Shown here: positions 15,633 to 24,849 of the stretch, one piece after another
Layout: the number at the start of each line of letters is the position of its first letter
Position numbering within the stretch: the stretch's first letter is position 1
Assembly: GCA_004283055.1 (NCBI GenBank)
Contig: SHLP01000022.1
Location: 1-38,280 of the forward strand
Source: Deltaproteobacteria bacterium
GTDB lineage: Bacteria; Myxococcota_A; Polyangia; Polyangiales; Houyiibacteriaceae
Length of the DNA: 38,280 bases
Direction: 5' to 3'
Position numbers and translations under genes: made by a program
Notes under the pieces: generated by a model
The model's database searches: none
What the model saw: only the letters and a program-made list of their open reading frames with translations
Told to the model about the DNA's origin: nothing

Positions 15633-16285
15633 GGCTGCATCAGGAGGGTCATTGCGATGATACACGCGGTGACGACTAGCGCCGCTAGGGCGTAGACCGC
15701 GACCTCGCTTCGTCGAAGTCGGACAGGCTCCGTCGAGCGCTCGCCATCAGGCCTCGAAGGACGCGGCTTGGAGGGCCTCGACTCCCTTGGGCGTGGAGGC
15801 TCAGTCCTGGTTTCCTTCGGGATCGGGAGCAGGTCTACGCGCTCGTCGTGTCCCTTCTGGATGCCGTTTAGCTCGGCGTCGACCCGCTGTGCGTCGGTGA
15901 TGGCGAGTTGCTCGGCCAGCATTCTCCGCGCGAAGTCTGCCGTGACCCTGGCCGACATCTCCCGAGAAACGGGAACACCGATGTCGATGCTGAGCCGATA
16001 ACCGCCCAGGTCGAGGAGGTCGTGCTTGCGCAGGGCTTTCGGGCGTCCTGGGGCGACACGGATGTCGTTGACGCGGGTTCCGTTCGTGGACCCTTCATCG
16101 ACTAGGGCGTAGCCCGCGTCCTGTTCCCGGATACTCGCGTGCATCGCGCTCACCGCCGCGTGAGGTAGCTGAACGTCTGCGCTCTGCGAACGCCCGATGA
16201 CGATGCGTGGTTGTGCGAACTCATAGACGAAAGTCGAAGGGTTAATCTCCGTCCAAAGTGACTGCACAGTGATTCGCACGCCCAT
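15629..16285 (-). CDS. FHA-domain membrane protein
   Basis: A 218-residue protein. An FHA phosphothreonine-binding domain spans about residues 10-100, with the core motifs GRSQSADVQL, SAMHASI and DEGSTNGTRVN all intact. A charged helix follows, then a Pro/Arg/Ser-rich linker, and a single C-terminal membrane helix (VAVYALAALVVTACIIAMTLLM) at the very end. It is therefore tail-anchored with the FHA domain in the cytoplasm. It can read Thr phosphorylation by Hanks-type kinases; one such kinase is encoded at 23518. The ATG at 16285 is preferred over a GTG at 16300. It is convergent with coaX and divergent from the PilZ protein. Confidence 0.88.
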   Translation of the reverse strand: MGVRITVQSLWTEINPSTFVYEFAQPRIVIGRSQSADVQLPHAAVSAMHASIREQDAGYALVDEGSTNGTRVNDIRVAPGRPKALRKHDLLDLGGYRLSIDIGVPVSREMSARVTADFARRMLAEQLAITDAQRVDAELNGIQKGHDERVDLLPIPKETRTEPPRPRESRPSKPRPSRPDGERSTEPVRLRRSEVAVYALAALVVTACIIAMTLLMQP

Positions 16286-16415
16286 CGTGGCGGCCAACAC
16301 TGGAGTCCTACCACGCGCGGGTCAAGGAACTGGGTTGCAGAAAAGTGGACGGGTTCGCGTAGTTTTGGGACCAGTCCTGATGGGAGCGACTCACGGTCGC
16401 GCAGGAGAGCATTCG

Positions 16416-17993
16416 ATGAACACATCCGCGGGTTACTATCAAGCACCTCGGCAACCGCGCGTGCCGCTCGACGAAGTACTGATCAAGCTCCATCCCGAAG
16501 GTTTCCATCAAGAGTTCGAAGCTGACGGAATCAACATGGGGTCCGGTGGCCTCTCCATGCGGGCATCGGTCTTGCCCGAGGTCGGCTCCGTGCTCCGCTG
16601 CCAGTTGGACAATCCGATCGGCGGAGAAGCGATTGAGATGATCGGTCGAGTCGTTTGGGCGCACGAGAGCGGCCCGCACGTCGGGGAGTTTGGAATCCGG
16701 TTCACGGATTTGTCCGACCGTGACCAGACCCGCATCGAAGCACTGATACAGCGTTGGGGTCGTGCGACCGCCACGGCCCCGCTCGTTCAGCTGCAGCTCG
16801 ATGGGGTTGGCTCTCCGATCGTGGCCGAGGTCCGCTCGGAGACGGAGGCCGCGCTCTGTGTGGAGCAGCCCCTTCCGTTTCTCGCCATTGGCGCCTCGGT
16901 GCTGAACGAGAGCTCCGGCCGGCGCGGGCACCTCGAAGCGGTCGAGCTCAAGATGGACGAAATCACCCCGAGGTTGGTCCTGAGTATCGGCTACGAGCTC
17001 GAAGAGGCGTCGGCTGACTCCGCGTCCAGCGAGGGCGATCGCGATACGCTTCCAGACGACGCGCCTTTGAAGATTCGAGTGCAGCCAAGCGGCCACGAAG
17101 AACGCATGCACGACACCCCTCGCATCGTTTGCTACGACCGCGAATCCGAGACAGCCGATCAAGAACCACTTCGCGAGCGATTCAGCGGCTATTCGAGGTA
17201 TGCATCCGAACGGTTTTCGAGCAGCGTCGAGAACGTACGCTCCGCGCTGCTCGATCGGCTCGTCCCGCACGTGACGAGCAATGTGAGGGAGCTCTTCGGA
17301 CTGCTGGGGCGATTCGTCGCTGCCCTCCGCTCGCAGCTCGACGACAAGCCTCGACGCAAGCAGGTCCCTAGAAGCGAGGCGGCGCGGGCGCATCTCAAGA
17401 ACACACGCCGGAGCCGGCGGCGGTACCTGCTCTTGGCCGCGATGGTCTGCGGGATTGTGGCCGCCGGATGGGGTGTCTACCTCTGGGCCGCGGCTGGTGC
17501 GACCGAGCCTGACGCCGACACAGTGACCGAGGCCAACGCCGAGGCTGGTATCGAGGCCGGCAAGGCCCCTGCAGAGATTCGTCCCGAGGTCGAGAGCGAC
17601 ACGAAGACGGCGGAAGTGACCGCGAAGGCGAAGGGGCCGCGGCCGAGCGACTACGTGCCGCAGGGCGCTCCCCTGCCTCCCAAGGACGTGCGTGGTTCGG
17701 CATTTGGGGCCGATGCCGTCGAGGGTGGCGAGAAGTACGTGCTGCGAATGAGCAACCCCGTCAGCGTACTCGATGGAATCATGGAAGAGGACGGGTTTTC
17801 GGTCACGATCCCTGGAAGTCTCTCACTTTCACGCGCCGGTCCAATCGCCGCCGCGCATCCGGACGTGGAGCATGCCAGCATCCTCAACCGCGGTGATTTC
17901 TCCGAGCTCACCCTCCGCTTCGTTGCGGGTCGGCATCCCGCTTACCGCGTCGAGGCGCGCGGGCCCGCGATTGAGATCACAGTCGCGCGCTAA
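16416..17993 (+). CDS. PilZ-type / single TM / AMIN-like protein
   Basis: A 525-residue protein with an excellent start: AGGAGAG at 16403-16409 is seven bases before the ATG. Residues about 12-115 resemble a PilZ c-di-GMP-binding domain (PRQPR followed by NMGSGGLSM), though both signature motifs are slightly off consensus, so ligand binding is uncertain. A second beta-rich segment follows to about 200. A polar linker leads to one membrane helix at about 337-356, preceded by RRSRRR (cytoplasmic side). After an Ala/Glu-rich linker, the last 85 residues look like an AMIN-type periplasmic beta domain (LRMSNPVSVLDG to AIEITVAR). The layout would connect c-di-GMP sensing inside to the cell wall or a secretin outside. 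Its stop interlocks with htrA. Confidence 0.75.
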   Translation: MNTSAGYYQAPRQPRVPLDEVLIKLHPEGFHQEFEADGINMGSGGLSMRASVLPEVGSVLRCQLDNPIGGEAIEMIGRVVWAHESGPHVGEFGIRFTDLSDRDQTRIEALIQRWGRATATAPLVQLQLDGVGSPIVAEVRSETEAALCVEQPLPFLAIGASVLNESSGRRGHLEAVELKMDEITPRLVLSIGYELEEASADSASSEGDRDTLPDDAPLKIRVQPSGHEERMHDTPRIVCYDRESETADQEPLRERFSGYSRYASERFSSSVENVRSALLDRLVPHVTSNVRELFGLLGRFVAALRSQLDDKPRRKQVPRSEAARAHLKNTRRSRRRYLLLAAMVCGIVAAGWGVYLWAAAGATEPDADTVTEANAEAGIEAGKAPAEIRPEVESDTKTAEVTAKAKGPRPSDYVPQGAPLPPKDVRGSAFGADAVEGGEKYVLRMSNPVSVLDGIMEEDGFSVTIPGSLSLSRAGPIAAAHPDVEHASILNRGDFSELTLRFVAGRHPAYRVEARGPAIEITVAR

Positions 17994-19387
17994 CGCGGGG
18001 TCGAGCGGTTGAGCGGTTGAAAGAACCGCTGAGAATCTCGCTCGATGTACAGCAGGCCCTTGCCATCACGCAGCGCCATCCGAACGTCTTCGATCGTACG
18101 AACAGCCTGGCGGTCAGCTTGAAGGATGATGTCGCCCGGTCGAAGGCCGGCTCGATCCGCGTCGGAGCCAGGCTTCACCGCGCGAACGAAAACTCGACCT
18201 TCGCCTTCGTAGCCCACCCTCGCGCGAAGCCTGGCGGTCAGCTCTTCGAGCGCAAGCCCTAGCATTCCGTTGTCCTCGACGCTCTGCTCACTGGCCCGCG
18301 CGGAGTCCTCGCTCGGCCGCTCCCCGGTGACGACTCCGATCTGCTTGGTCTTTCCGCCGCGGCGCACCTCGAGGTTCACGCGTTCACCGACCCCCTGGCG
18401 CAGCACCGTGCGCAAGAGGTCGTGTCCCTCCCGGATCGGCTGGTTCCCAACCCCGGTGATCACGTCTCCCGACCGCAGACCCGCTTTGTCCGCCGGGCCC
18501 CCGGGCACCACAGCATTGACCAGTGCTCCTCCGTCGAAGTCCCCGCCGAAATGCGCAGCCAGCTCAGGCGTGATTTCCTGAAACGATACCCCGAGCCACG
18601 CCCGCTTGACCGAGCCGCTGGCGATGAGTTGGCTCGCGACGCGCTGAGCGATTTCAGCGGGAATCGCAAAGCCGATTCCGGAGCCGCGGCCGATGATCAT
18701 CGTGTTGATCCCGAGCACCCGCCCTTGAAGGTCAACCAGTGGTCCGCCGGAGTTGCCAGGATTGATGCTGGCGTCGGTCTGTAGATAGTCTTCGATTTCG
18801 TTCGCACCAATCCCTCCGCGCCCTTTCGCGCTGAGGACCCCGGTCGTCACGGTGTAGTCGAGACCAAAGGGAGAACCGATCGCGATGACGAACTGCCCGA
18901 CTCGCGCTCTTTCCGAAGACGCGAACTCGGCCTGCGGCAGTCCTCGAGCGTCGATCTTCAACATGGCGAGGTCGGTCGCAGAATCTGCGCCGACCAGGGT
19001 TGCTGGGTAACGCTTTCCGTTCCTCAACCGCACGTCGATCCGCGTTGCCTCTTTGACGACGTGGTTGTTGGTCAGGATGTAGCCGTCCGAACGCAAGATC
19101 ACACCCGAGCCGCCCCCTCGGACGATGCCTCCCTGTCCCTGGCCTCCGAAAAACGAGGGCAGACCATTGTTCATCGGCCTGCTGACTTCGACTCGGATGC
19201 TGACGACGGAAGACGAGACTGATTCGGCCACGCCGGTCAGGGCGGTTTCGAAGGCGACCGCCCGCGTCAGAGCGTCTTCGTCGACCGCCCCCTTCCTCGG
19301 CGATGCGGATGCGGTGCCCAGTGTGATGGCGGCGAGCATCGCACCCAAAGCTGCGAGCCAAGATCCCCGCTGCATGGTTCGAAACAT
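17990..19387 (-). CDS. HtrA/DegP-family periplasmic serine protease
   Basis: Envelope quality-control protease of 465 residues. It has a signal peptide (WLAALGAMLAAITLG, cleavage after ASA) and a trypsin-like domain with the full triad: His in TNNHVV, Asp in TDLAMLKID, Ser in GNSGGP. Two PDZ domains follow (AWLGVSFQE onward, and GLALEELTARL onward), as in DegP/DegQ. The start is chosen at the ATG of 19387 because GGGAGG (minus strand, 19395-19400) lies seven bases upstream; the in-frame ATG at 19393 and GTG at 19408 sit on or before that site. It is monocistronic and separated by 107 bp from the kinase operon. I see no convincing sigma-E promoter. Confidence 0.94.
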   Translation of the reverse strand: MFRTMQRGSWLAALGAMLAAITLGTASASPRKGAVDEDALTRAVAFETALTGVAESVSSSVVSIRVEVSRPMNNGLPSFFGGQGQGGIVRGGGSGVILRSDGYILTNNHVVKEATRIDVRLRNGKRYPATLVGADSATDLAMLKIDARGLPQAEFASSERARVGQFVIAIGSPFGLDYTVTTGVLSAKGRGGIGANEIEDYLQTDASINPGNSGGPLVDLQGRVLGINTMIIGRGSGIGFAIPAEIAQRVASQLIASGSVKRAWLGVSFQEITPELAAHFGGDFDGGALVNAVVPGGPADKAGLRSGDVITGVGNQPIREGHDLLRTVLRQGVGERVNLEVRRGGKTKQIGVVTGERPSEDSARASEQSVEDNGMLGLALEELTARLRARVGYEGEGRVFVRAVKPGSDADRAGLRPGDIILQADRQAVRTIEDVRMALRDGKGLLYIERDSQRFFQPLNRSTPR

Positions 19388-19393
19388 GAACAT

Positions 19394-19400
19394 ACCTCCC
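19394..19400 (-). promoter_or_regulatory. ribosome-binding site that sets the htrA start
   Basis: GGGAGGT on the minus strand. It is directly against the ATG at 19393 but correctly spaced (about seven bases) for the ATG at 19387, so it decides between three in-frame starts. Confidence 0.75.
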
Positions 19401-19494
19401 TTTGTCACCCCTCAACCTCTCAGGAACGGCGTTGATTCCAACCAGAAACGTAAGGCTCCTGCGCGATATTCAAAACCCCCCAGATTGCGGGATT

Positions 19495-21195
19495 TTAGCG
19501 CCTCAGGCAGGGCAGGGTGATCAGCGCTCGCGTGTGGCGTCCGGGTTCGCTCTCGATCTCGATATTCCCACGATGCTCCTCGATGATATTCCGCACGATC
19601 GAGAGGCCAAGCCCGGTCCCCTGGCCCTTTCGCCGCGTCGAGAAGAAGGGCTCGAAGACCCGGCCGAGCTCGGTCCGCCGAATTCCGACACCATTGTCCT
19701 CGACCTGGATCTGGATCTGGTCCTGACCGTGGAGGCGTGTGGAGAGCCCCAGGCGTCCGCCCTCTTCGGGTGCAGCGTTGCACGCGTTGGTGATGAGATT
19801 GACGAAGACCTGGTGGAGTTGCCCATGCACGGCCTTCACCTCCGGAAGGTTCTCGCCGTACTCACGCACCACCGTGACGTTTGCTTCGTCGAGACTGTGC
19901 TCACAGAAATCTACCGCCTCGTCGAGGACCTCGTTGAGCGAGACGGGCTGCGCCTCTTCTTTCGAAGGGCGTGCATAGCTGAGCAGATTGCGGGTGAAGG
20001 ACATGATGCGATCGGAGCTTCGCAAGATGCGTTCCAGGCGCTTGAGGTCGGCCTGCTCGGCCCCGCTTCGCGACAGCTTGCTCATCAGGTACTCCCCGTA
20101 GACCGAAATGCTCGTCAGCGGGTTGTTGATCTCGTGGACGATGCCCGCCGCGAGCTGGCCGAGAGTCGCCAGCTTCTCGGCGTGGATCACCTGGCCTTCG
20201 AGCTCGCGCACTTCGGTCCTGTCCTGACCAATCGCGATGACGCCGGCAACGCTGCCCTCGGAGTCGAGAATCGGTACCAGCGTGAACCGGAGCCGCGCGT
20301 TTCCGCCTCCGGCTTTGGGCAATCTGAGCTCGAACGGTGGTACCTCGCCACCGCGAAGTGCGTGCACGAAGGCCGACAAGACGCGCGCTCGCTCGTGTTG
20401 GCCCGTGAGCTGCAGTAAATCCTTGGAGACCAGCTCGGCCCGGTCGAGGCCGGTGATGCGACCGAAGGCGCCGCTGACCACGCGTACGTTGCGATCACGT
20501 CCAACGACCAGGACGGGGATGTTCGCATGCTCCAAGAGCTTGTCGAGGTAGTCGCGCAGGTGAAGCGATTCGCGGCGGAGACGGCCGCTCTCTATCGCGG
20601 CGCTGCCTTGGGCGGCCACAATCAAGAGCGCGTCTTCCAAGCGGGAGGGGAGCTCGTCACCGCGTACGAACTCCGCCGCGAGGACGCCGAAGATCTCTCC
20701 ACCCCTCGCTAGTGCAACGTCCAGACCATCGGCAGCAACGAGGTCCTCGCCGGGCCCTGCCATCAAGATGGGCTCGTATGTCCGCCGCAAAACCATACTG
20801 GGCGGCGGCTCCGCCGTTTCGGTAAAGCCCGCTCGAACGAGCCCTGCTTCGGTGATCGCAACTTCGTCCAGCGCGTCGGGCCGAATGTGATGCGTCGTGG
20901 CTTGGACGATGGCGCTTCGCTCCCGCAGTCCGCGCGAAAGCCTCATCGCGAAGCGGATTGTCGGAAAAAGTCGCTCCAGGGCGTGCACGTACGCTCGAAG
21001 GATACTCTCGTCCGTGCTCGGCCCCGTCGTCTCGCGCTGCGCCTGAGTCAGCGAGGCGAGCACGTTAGGCAGGGTGAGGCCTTCGGAACGTTCGCTGCGA
21101 CGTCGCCGTGGCGAAACGATCGACTTCACAGACGACACCCGCGGCTCAGGGTCTTGCTTCGAGACGGGTGGCTTTCTGTGCGCGGAGTCGTCCAT
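19495..21195 (-). CDS. GAF/PAS sensor histidine kinase (NtrB-like)
   Basis: A 566-residue soluble kinase. After a basic N-terminus, residues about 60-205 look like a GAF domain and 215-330 like a PAS domain (IPVLVVGRDRNV onward). The HisKA helix has the phospho-acceptor His355 in VHEINNPLTS. The ATPase domain is complete: N box NLITNACNA, G1 EDNGVGI, F box FEPFFSTRRKG and G2 GTGLGLSI. No membrane segment is present, so it senses cytoplasmic signals. The ATG (21195) is three bases after the stop of the upstream kinase-like gene, so the two are co-transcribed. No response-regulator gene adjoins; the partner is probably elsewhere. Confidence 0.93.
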   Translation of the reverse strand: MDDSAHRKPPVSKQDPEPRVSSVKSIVSPRRRRSERSEGLTLPNVLASLTQAQRETTGPSTDESILRAYVHALERLFPTIRFAMRLSRGLRERSAIVQATTHHIRPDALDEVAITEAGLVRAGFTETAEPPPSMVLRRTYEPILMAGPGEDLVAADGLDVALARGGEIFGVLAAEFVRGDELPSRLEDALLIVAAQGSAAIESGRLRRESLHLRDYLDKLLEHANIPVLVVGRDRNVRVVSGAFGRITGLDRAELVSKDLLQLTGQHERARVLSAFVHALRGGEVPPFELRLPKAGGGNARLRFTLVPILDSEGSVAGVIAIGQDRTEVRELEGQVIHAEKLATLGQLAAGIVHEINNPLTSISVYGEYLMSKLSRSGAEQADLKRLERILRSSDRIMSFTRNLLSYARPSKEEAQPVSLNEVLDEAVDFCEHSLDEANVTVVREYGENLPEVKAVHGQLHQVFVNLITNACNAAPEEGGRLGLSTRLHGQDQIQIQVEDNGVGIRRTELGRVFEPFFSTRRKGQGTGLGLSIVRNIIEEHRGNIEIESEPGRHTRALITLPCLRR

Positions 21196-21198
21196 CGC

Positions 21199-22587
21199 TC
21201 AGCCCTTTGCCCCCGGTTCACTCGACCCGTCGGCAGCACGATCGAGATCGAAGATCTTTTGATGGCCGACGTACGAGGTGGTTTCGTATCGGGTGATCTT
21301 CCCGATCTTGCGGACGATCTCTGCCATTCGCTCCGCTTCGCGGATCAGCACCCGAGCGGCTTTCGCCGCGGCGGAAGACGGCTCGGATTGTCGTAGGAGG
21401 AGCTCGGCGTAAGCCATCATGCTGGTCAAGGGCTGGTTCAGCTCGTGAGCCGCAGTGCCGGCCAGCTCCGCGAGCACTCCCTGTTTCTCGGTAAAAGCGA
21501 GCTTCTTCTGCGTCTCGGCCAGATGTTCTTCGACTCGGATCCGATCGCGCAGGTCGGCGAAAATGAGGACGATCGCGGACGGCTCGCCGTTCTCGTAGAT
21601 GAGAGAAGCGGATAGCTGCACCGGGACTCGCCTCCCGTGGATGTCCACGAGATCGAGCTTCGTCGGTTCGAGCCGTCCCGTGCCGCCGTGCTCGGTGGAG
21701 AGCAGCCGTTGGGTGACGAGCTCGACCGTGGCACGGCCAAGAAGATCTTCGAGCGTCACTGACCCGACCACGTCTGATTCGTGGTAGCCGGTGATTCGCG
21801 CCGCGCTCGCATTGAACAAGCGAACGCGCTGTTCCATGTCCGTCGAAATGATCGCGTCGACGCTAGCGTCGATCAACGATCCCAAGAACTCCATCGTCTT
21901 GACGAGCTCGCGCTCGGTTTGGCGCTGAAGCGTTACGTCTTCGAACGACATGACGGTGTGGTCCTTCGCGCCGAACAGCGGAGCGAACGAGCAGCTGCAC
22001 ACGATGCTCACCCCGTCGCGCCGAAGGACCTGGATGTCCATCGCTCGAGGATATTGGCCCTGTGAGAGTGCGCCGCGAACCCTCGGAAGATCATCGGCCG
22101 AAAGCAGGTACCCAATATCCTGGGACGCGATTGTTTCCTCGCGGTGGCCCGTGATTTCGTGGGAGCGAGGGTTGGCGGTCAGGATTTCGAGCTCGGGGCC
22201 CAGGACCACGACGCCGATCGCCATCGAGGCGAACGCCTCGGAGTAAGGGCGCCGCAAGTCGTCCAGAGGGCTCCGAGCGTGCAGACGCTGGAGACGGACG
22301 AGCAGCGCCGCTCGGCGAACCGGTCGAAACACGAAATCGTCCGCAAACCGTTCGAGCCGATCGGCCTGCTCACCTTCCGAGATTAGGAGAACAGGCATCG
22401 CCTGGGTCGGAGTCCACGCATTTGCACCTGGGTGGGCAGCGTCGAGCACGAGCACGTCGTGCTGCAGCTCCCGATCCCCGAGACCTTCGGTCGCGAGCCA
22501 CTCGACCGACCAATCGGTTCCCTCCAAGCTGGCGACGAGCTTCTGGCTGAGCTCGGGATCTTTTGAAATCAGTGCCAGTGTGGGCAT
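21199..22587 (-). CDS. receiver-like/PAS/PAS/HisKA protein lacking the ATPase domain
   Basis: A 462-residue protein. Residues 1-105 resemble a receiver domain: an Asp in LVLDAA is kept, but the conserved Lys is Arg in FVFRPVR, so it is probably a degenerate receiver. Two PAS domains follow (about 110-225 and 230-350). The HisKA dimerisation helix has His381 in AAHELNQPLTS and its second helix (ERMAEIVRKIGKITRYET). The protein then ends in about 25 residues (YVGHQKIFDLDRA) without any ATPase N, G1, F or G2 box. The stop is clean and I see no frameshifted ATPase remnant downstream; the next gene starts three bases later and is a complete kinase. It may be phosphorylated in trans by that kinase. 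Confidence 0.9.
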   Translation of the reverse strand: MPTLALISKDPELSQKLVASLEGTDWSVEWLATEGLGDRELQHDVLVLDAAHPGANAWTPTQAMPVLLISEGEQADRLERFADDFVFRPVRRAALLVRLQRLHARSPLDDLRRPYSEAFASMAIGVVVLGPELEILTANPRSHEITGHREETIASQDIGYLLSADDLPRVRGALSQGQYPRAMDIQVLRRDGVSIVCSCSFAPLFGAKDHTVMSFEDVTLQRQTERELVKTMEFLGSLIDASVDAIISTDMEQRVRLFNASAARITGYHESDVVGSVTLEDLLGRATVELVTQRLLSTEHGGTGRLEPTKLDLVDIHGRRVPVQLSASLIYENGEPSAIVLIFADLRDRIRVEEHLAETQKKLAFTEKQGVLAELAGTAAHELNQPLTSMMAYAELLLRQSEPSSAAAKAARVLIREAERMAEIVRKIGKITRYETTSYVGHQKIFDLDRAADGSSEPGAKG

Positions 22588-23475: not shown

Positions 23476-23510
23476 TTGCGTTTTACAATATCATCAAGAT
23501 ATTATGTAAA
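23476..23510 (+). promoter_or_regulatory. AT-rich dyad and candidate promoter before the Ser/Thr kinase
   Basis: An AT-rich island in GC-rich DNA. TTTACAATATC (23482-23492) and GATATTATGTAAA (23498-23510) form an inverted repeat with one 2-base insertion around a 5-base centre. Overlapping it, TTGCGT (23476-23481) and TATTAT (23500-23505), 18 bases apart, fit a housekeeping-sigma promoter. The ATG of the next gene lies only about 12 bases beyond, so a very short leader is implied. There is no T-run, so it is not a terminator for murI. An operator for a dimeric repressor is the simplest reading. Confidence 0.5.
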
Positions 23511-23517
23511 TACTGGC

Positions 23518-24849
23518 ATGCGGGATTTGGGTGGTGGACAGGCAATCGTCTCGGAAGAGCCGCTGGAGGACTCGGAGAATCGTATTTTCGCGACCGGCGA
23601 GCTGCTCGATGGCGTCTACGAGATCGTCAAGCTCCTCGGCCGCGGGGGAATGGGCCAGGTCTTCGAGGCTCACGATCACCTGCTCAATCGTCGAGTTGCG
23701 ATCAAAGCAGCGTGGCCGAATCCCCTGACCCCGCCGCTTCGAAACGAGGCGCGGGCGCTAGCTGCGTTCCAGCATCCAAGCTTGGTCAGCGTCCACACGC
23801 TCGGGGAGCACCGCGGGATCGACTACCTGGTCATGGAGCGCGTCTACGGCGTCTCTTTGACCAAGCACGCCGAAACCCGCTGGGGAAGCGGCGAGCCGTT
23901 CAGCGTGGCCGAAGTGGTGCAGATCCTCCTGCCAGCGGCCGAAGGGCTGAGCGTCGTTCACCGCGCAGGGCTCGTCCATCGCGACATCAAGCCGGACAAC
24001 ATCATGCTCACTCCGGTTCATCGCGTAGTGCTCATGGACTTTGGGCTCGTTTTGCCCGAGTTCGACGTCAACGGAAAGCAGCGTGTCGCGGGCTCTCCTC
24101 CGTACATGGCGCCCGAGGCTCTATTCAATACGGCCGCTCCTGGCAGCGGCCATCTCGTCGATATCTTCGCACTCGGCGTGCTCGCCTACGAGCTGCTCAC
24201 CGGGTCCCGGCCGTACGACGGCAGGACGCTTCGTGAGGTGGTCGCCAACCACGAACGCGGGCAACCCGTGCCGCTCGCCGAGCTCCGACCCGATTGCCCT
24301 CTGGCGATGTGCCAGCTCGTGCACGAAATGCTCAGCCCGAACCCGCAGATGCGCAATCAAAGCGCCGAGGCCGTTGCGTGGCAGCTGCGTGCGGTCGGCG
24401 ACGAGCGACCTCGCAGCCAAAGCACGAAAGAGACGAATCAAAAGGCGCCTTCGGTGTTGATTGTCGATGACGACGTGGACCTGGCGAAGATCCTCACGTT
24501 CTACGTGCGACAGATCCTTGGACCGACCGTGATTCGTGTCGCCCACGACGGGGAAGAGGCATTCCGCGAAGTCCAAAAAGAGGAGCCGGACGTCATGCTG
24601 CTCGATTTGCACATGCCCCGCATGAACGGCGTCGAGCTTTGCATGCAGCTCAGAGGCGAAGGCCTTGCGCAGAGCTGTTCCATCATCTCCGTCAGTGCCG
24701 GCGCGCAGGAGCACGATGTCCAGCTTCTTCATCAGCTCGGGATTCATCACTTCGTCGAGAAGGGATCGAACCTGCGAGAGCGACTTCGAAAGGTCGTCGC
24801 CGAAGCGTGCGGCGACCAGGTTCTGGCGAACGAGTCAACGGGCTCCTAG
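23518..24849 (+). CDS. Hanks-type Ser/Thr kinase with C-terminal receiver domain
   Basis: A 443-residue fusion. The kinase domain (about 35-290) has all the active-site motifs: glycine loop GRGGMGQV, VAIK lysine, HRDIKPDN catalytic loop, DFGL and the APE motif in MAPEAL. After a 20-residue linker there is a complete receiver domain (about 310-430): acidic pair VDDD, phospho-acceptor Asp in LLDLHMP, Ser in VSAG and Lys in VEKG. No membrane helix or PASTA repeats. A histidine kinase may control the Ser/Thr kinase through the receiver, or the receiver may be an output modified by it. The ATG at 23518 follows the candidate promoter; a TTG at 23476 would lie inside it. Confidence 0.9.
   Translation: MRDLGGGQAIVSEEPLEDSENRIFATGELLDGVYEIVKLLGRGGMGQVFEAHDHLLNRRVAIKAAWPNPLTPPLRNEARALAAFQHPSLVSVHTLGEHRGIDYLVMERVYGVSLTKHAETRWGSGEPFSVAEVVQILLPAAEGLSVVHRAGLVHRDIKPDNIMLTPVHRVVLMDFGLVLPEFDVNGKQRVAGSPPYMAPEALFNTAAPGSGHLVDIFALGVLAYELLTGSRPYDGRTLREVVANHERGQPVPLAELRPDCPLAMCQLVHEMLSPNPQMRNQSAEAVAWQLRAVGDERPRSQSTKETNQKAPSVLIVDDDVDLAKILTFYVRQILGPTVIRVAHDGEEAFREVQKEEPDVMLLDLHMPRMNGVELCMQLRGEGLAQSCSIISVSAGAQEHDVQLLHQLGIHHFVEKGSNLRERLRKVVAEACGDQVLANESTGS

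Follow-up and report, generated by a model that had tools for sequence, protein, structure and literature searches.

The window analysed here is a stretch of 38,280 nucleotides from a Deltaproteobacteria bacterium (contig SHLP01000022.1, positions 1 to 38,280; GenBank assembly GCA_004283055.1). Two adjacent minus-strand genes, here called A and B, together account exactly for positions 19495-22587. ORF A (21199..22587; ATG at 22587, TGA at 21201-21199) encodes a 462 aa histidine kinase-like protein that lacks a HATPase domain, as defined by the ORF call, Pfam, an AF2 model and orthologues. It comprises a pseudo-receiver (residues ~1-105), PAS1 (~120-220), PAS2 (~235-345), a HisKA/DHp region (347-433) and a conserved tail (434-448).

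A first-pass annotation of the locus had described a degenerate receiver, two PAS domains and an intact His381 in a protein that ends cleanly without an ATP-binding domain, a description that our searches bear out. Pfam finds both PAS domains (best stretches 125-219 and 237-345) and HisKA at residues 373-428 (PF00512, E 1.7e-11), in which His381 (codon 21445..21447, minus strand; motif HELNQP in the window copy) is the phospho-acceptor that characterises histidine kinases. The receiver lies below Pfam detection; residues 5-105 match the CarR receiver weakly (E 7e-4), and the alpha/beta start of the AF2 model fits a receiver. The acidic pair and the Lys are lost (S-K and R) and the Asp position is kept, so that the window copy does not carry the functional receiver of a RetS-like phosphate-sink hybrid. 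HATPase_c, a defining domain of HisKA-type histidine kinases, is absent from A at E ≤ 1 and present in B; ORF A ends about 25-30 residues past the second helix of its DHp region. The predicted domain layout of the pair includes no membrane segment.

In place of the usual HATPase start, A carries a C-terminal tail, Y434-E-T-x-x-Y-V-G-x-x-x-I-x-D-L448 (21244..21288, minus strand), delimited by orthologue conservation and the AF2 model. Residues 434-462 are disordered on their own (pLDDT about 30-45), and the tail is still disordered in a single-chain AF2 model of A-tail/B, a prediction that yields no score for an interface and in which the TGA was read as Trp purely as a modelling device. That the tail is conserved yet predicted to be disordered suggests that it may fold on a partner.

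ORF B (19495..21195, minus strand) encodes a complete sensor kinase of 566 aa with a probable GAF domain, PAS (221-331; PAS_4, 2.2e-13), HisKA (345-410, with His354) and HATPase_c (459-562, 1.6e-26). The TGA of A and the ATG of B are separated by 3 bp (GCG, 21196..21198, minus strand) and lie in the same frame; because B begins so soon, no HATPase can hide behind A. The expectation of a complete GAF/PAS kinase three bases downstream thus holds for the gap, PAS, HisKA and HATPase, whereas GAF appears only as a sub-threshold Pfam match (GAF_2, E 0.09) and is plausible but weak. The N and G boxes of B are intact, and N466, N470, D500, G502, G504, G526, G528 and G530 are invariant across the B family, from which we infer that B should be an active kinase. 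His354 is likewise invariant, and the family is marked by a diagnostic FCEH motif (C431, H433 in the window), almost invariant as Phe-Cys-Glu/Asp-His.

Upstream of A lies a divergent murI gene, and an HtrA-like protease (17990-19408, minus strand) is encoded directly 3′ of B. The murI-A-B-htrA order is found again in part in families f1, f3 and f9; one genome that lacks B (G026, locus L059) has HtrA directly after A. These positions point to a possible envelope-related role for A-B. Two further genes of the window lie on the opposite strand: one encoding a PilZ-domain protein with long flanking regions (16269-17993, plus strand), which adjoins the HtrA gene, and one encoding a Ser/Thr protein kinase fused to a receiver (23476-24849, plus strand), two genes from A-B, whose position is conserved within the genus and across several genera of the family.

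Conservation of the A family

A orthologues were found, one each, in 99 of 115 related genomes searched. A 102-column profile of HisKA plus tail, with which members score about 100 bits or more and paralogues about 64, had exactly one match per genome in 210 of 289 genomes of the class. It also matches in families f20, f26 and f35, outside the class, the last of these being recovered by DNA pattern as well. No relatives were found in a plasmid collection.

Among 149 A loci examined, none has a HATPase domain in the same ORF, and most of these ORFs stop within 50 residues of the tail. His381, Glu382, Asn384, Gln385 and Pro386 (H-E-x-N-Q-P) are invariant in 143/143 non-duplicate copies; the sequences were excised with a pattern that includes this motif, and no copy failed the pattern. 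The tail residues Thr436, Tyr439, Gly441, Ile445 and Asp447 are present in 140-143 of the 143. The absence of HATPase from all 149 copies, set against the invariance of H-E-x-N-Q-P, argues for a phospho-acceptor or phosphatase site that is in use and would need the ATPase of a partner.

Many relatives have the layout REC-GAF-PAS-PAS-HisKA (for example at L084), the GAF domain being absent in the window's genus. A complete receiver occurs in 38 of 124 scored copies (about 30%), mostly those of f12 and f35; in the other copies the receiver is degenerate. B is shorter in f12, at about 410-450 aa, with no sensor domain found in the L084 copy; the receiver of A and the sensors of B may trade off against each other.

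Two other unusual HisKA arrangements occur in the genome from which the window comes. At L254 (contig C96, about 64.0-66.0 kb), tandem HisKA ORFs of 321 and 325 aa (1030-1995 and 1992-2969) overlap by 4 bp; their HATPase regions are unmatched by the B-derived model, and they are possibly a pseudokinase pair. At L273 (contig C221), downstream of a CheB-like gene, a short ORF (1426-2172) encodes a HisKA protein whose ATPase looks degenerate.

Linkage of A and B, fusions and orphan copies

The first-pass annotation had called for a search for the same pairing in other genomes, and the pairing proved to be conserved. Of the 121 A loci with enough flank, 98 have a HATPase kinase as their immediate downstream neighbour, in the same orientation. 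For the 87 loci at which the A stop and the B start were both definable, B starts at -4 relative to the A stop in 41, at +3 in 18 and at -1 in 6, and the overlaps are of a kind typical of translational coupling. The downstream kinases form one orthologous family, marked by FCEH. In whole-genome searches with the B profile, standard-pair and fused copies of B score 384-761 bits and no other kinase exceeds 315; in family f62 (G327) the adjacent kinase has diverged and scores 278 bits.

B was not found standing alone in any of 21 A-less genomes searched, from chosen genome lists that include some incomplete assemblies. Comparing 98/121 with 0/22 by a Fisher test yields p about 1e-13, a descriptive value, as the 22 includes one genome too many and the genomes are non-independent. 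Acceptor and ATPase thus lie on separate, jointly conserved proteins, as in a split kinase, though A occurs without B at 23 loci. The ATPase partner does not lack an acceptor of its own, as CheA4 does, since B has a HisKA with its invariant His354. Paired direct-coupling analysis placed no DHp-DHp contacts among its top 100 couplings (87 A-B pairs; Meff 62, too few sequences), and no conserved response regulator gene was seen beside the pair in the loci inspected. The lineage-wide conservation of A and its frequent pairing indicate that A-B is probably a working two-part sensor, an old and widely kept arrangement in Myxococcota, and not a broken gene.

In two genomes of one genus (G042 and G047, family f11) the profile finds no A, and each has a single fused ORF, of 834 and 884 aa. 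The N-terminal ~410-460 residues align with the GAF-PAS-PAS region of A (E 6e-40 and 5e-44, about 30% identity), the remainder being B, with 46-56% identity over PAS-HisKA-HATPase; the HisKA of A is missing from both. By its domain order, such a chain is one in which an A sensor would feed, and could drive, a B kinase, and we regard it as the best genomic evidence that the same input passes between two chains elsewhere. That the HisKA of A was dropped once its sensor was joined to B suggests that this domain may serve to join the two proteins. Being dispensable once the sensor is tied to B fits a docking role for it and does not fit an obligatory phosphorelay through His381.

At the 23 orphan loci A has no adjacent kinase, and in the 20 of these whose genomes were tested no B orthologue occurs elsewhere, only background kinases of at most 315 bits. 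The linked or orphan state changes at least 14 times on the A tree, or 10 times counting only well-supported branches, from which we infer, as to direction, that B has probably been lost repeatedly. Orphan copies keep His381 and nearly all tail residues. With these residues retained, A must also have a role that does not depend on B, and aiding the neighbouring kinase cannot be all that it does. Two positions appear relaxed: Lys427 is present in 16/23 orphan and 93/98 linked copies, and Tyr434 in 20/23 and 98/98. This is a weak hint, confounded by shared ancestry, that the two residues are candidate contacts with B.

Possible mechanisms and related systems

The domain content of the two proteins, their ancient conservation, the operon coupling, the dependence of B on A and the fusion are the observed basis for what follows. 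Together they support a view of A as a sensor subunit that serves B and is itself catalytically incomplete. In the model that we favour, A is a DHp-only sensor subunit whose PAS domains would read signals and whose HisKA, half of a four-helix bundle, would pair with the HisKA of B. B would bring the only ATPase, and in the mixed dimer its catalytic domain may phosphorylate His381 of A in trans, so that the signal state of A tunes B. The tail, replacing the start of a HATPase domain, probably folds onto the catalytic domain of the partner or onto a shared response regulator. In lineages without B, A would have to rely on another kinase or work through its HExxN phosphatase-type motif. That A and B form such a bipartite kinase, dimerising through their DHp domains with the ATPase of B serving both, seems to us evenly balanced between true and false; against it, the invariance of His354 makes it quite plausible that B functions as a normal homodimer. 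A broader version, in which members of the A family are hubs, DHp-only subunits that pair with B, or with other kinases where B has been lost, and whose tail folds on the partner, is put forward more tentatively. The split-kinase interpretation of the first-pass annotation is in these respects partly supported.

In one alternative, A is mainly an independent phosphatase or phosphotransfer hub for response regulators, acting through its DHp and HExxN motif, and B is an optional, dedicated kinase of the same regulator, which is where the two would meet, and not in a heterodimer. Many lineages have A alone, with H-E-x-N-Q-P and tail kept; HisKA-only proteins with HE/DxxN/T have been proposed as split bifunctional kinases (PMC3591291), and in RetS the HisKA acts as a phosphatase although the ATPase is inactive (PMC5992135). 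The tight coupling of the two genes and the strict dependence of B on A count against it, as do the fusions, in which the HisKA of A is deleted and no phosphatase function of A can survive, and the lack of a response regulator gene seen conserved beside the pair. We consider this alternative unlikely, while worth keeping in mind.

Less probable again, A could inhibit or tune B through an unproductive dimer, or drain phosphate through its receiver, without being a substrate. Restraint of one kinase by another is proven for RetS and GacS, by three routes that include phosphate theft by a receiver (PMC5992135), and about 30% of scored A copies have a complete receiver. However, the receiver is degenerate in most copies, the window's included, pure inhibition does not require an invariant His381, and the fusions suggest input rather than inhibition. 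We would be somewhat more surprised still if B phosphorylated His381 in a transient enzyme-substrate encounter, both proteins remaining homodimers. CheA4 phosphorylates CheA3 in this way (PMC3591291) and the histidines of A and B are both invariant, but in CheA the acceptor is a mobile domain of its own, whereas in A it is a DHp, a dimerising domain of the type that B also has.

A frameshift (which the first-pass annotation had itself named as a refuting outcome), an assembly error, gene decay or stop-codon read-through has next to no likelihood: in the window, as in most members of its genus, the TGA, gap and B do share a frame, but B starts 3 bp after A, no HATPase occurs in A at 149 loci from many assemblies, A is strongly conserved, and the gap is -4 or another out-of-frame value in most loci. 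Both a hidden frameshift or truncated assembly and a conserved A-B read-through fusion were rejected on these grounds, the in-frame TGA being local to the genus.

The arrangement has partial precedents. In group A Streptococcus, FasB and FasC heterodimerise by two-hybrid analysis, and loss of the HATPase leaves FasC functional whereas loss of its DHp His does not (PMC12675982). This too is an adjacent pair of kinase-like genes in which one partner's HATPase is dispensable and its DHp His required; unlike A, FasC retains the HATPase and sits in the membrane, and it acts together with FasA, a neighbouring regulator of a kind that A-B lacks. CheA3 and CheA4 of Rhodobacter sphaeroides place phospho-acceptor and ATPase on separate cooperating proteins (PMC3591291), as A and B may do if B acts in trans, although the acceptor there is a CheA-type P1 domain and CheA4 has none of its own, whereas B is complete and the acceptor of A is a DHp. 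RetS of Pseudomonas aeruginosa is, like A, a kinase-like protein unable to autophosphorylate, which modulates the complete kinase GacS through HisKA and REC (PMC5992135); it keeps a degenerate HATPase and inhibits GacS, while A has no HATPase and is co-encoded with B.

HisKA proteins without HATPase are themselves already known. A SMART census counted 1556 among 42417 HisKA proteins (3.7%), 711 of them with HE/DxxN/T, and predicted that they are split bifunctional kinases (PMC3591291). A lacks the same domain and has the same motif, but the census had no conserved partner, whereas A belongs to one defined, class-wide family with a dedicated one. In the open-licence literature searched we found no description of the A family or of A-B pairing, and a class-wide DHp-only family with a dedicated kinase would, on that footing, be a new form of split or heterodimeric kinase.

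HisKA proteins without an ATPase are easily dismissed as fragments, and tests of split or mixed kinases are few. The A family has natural controls built in, with A-B pairs, orphans that lack the kinase and fusions that lack the extra DHp, and so makes testable both the passage of a signal across a mixed kinase dimer and the function of a DHp without an ATPase of its own. If the hub reading is true, mixed kinase dimers would be routine in these bacteria, their subunits dividing sensing and catalysis between them.
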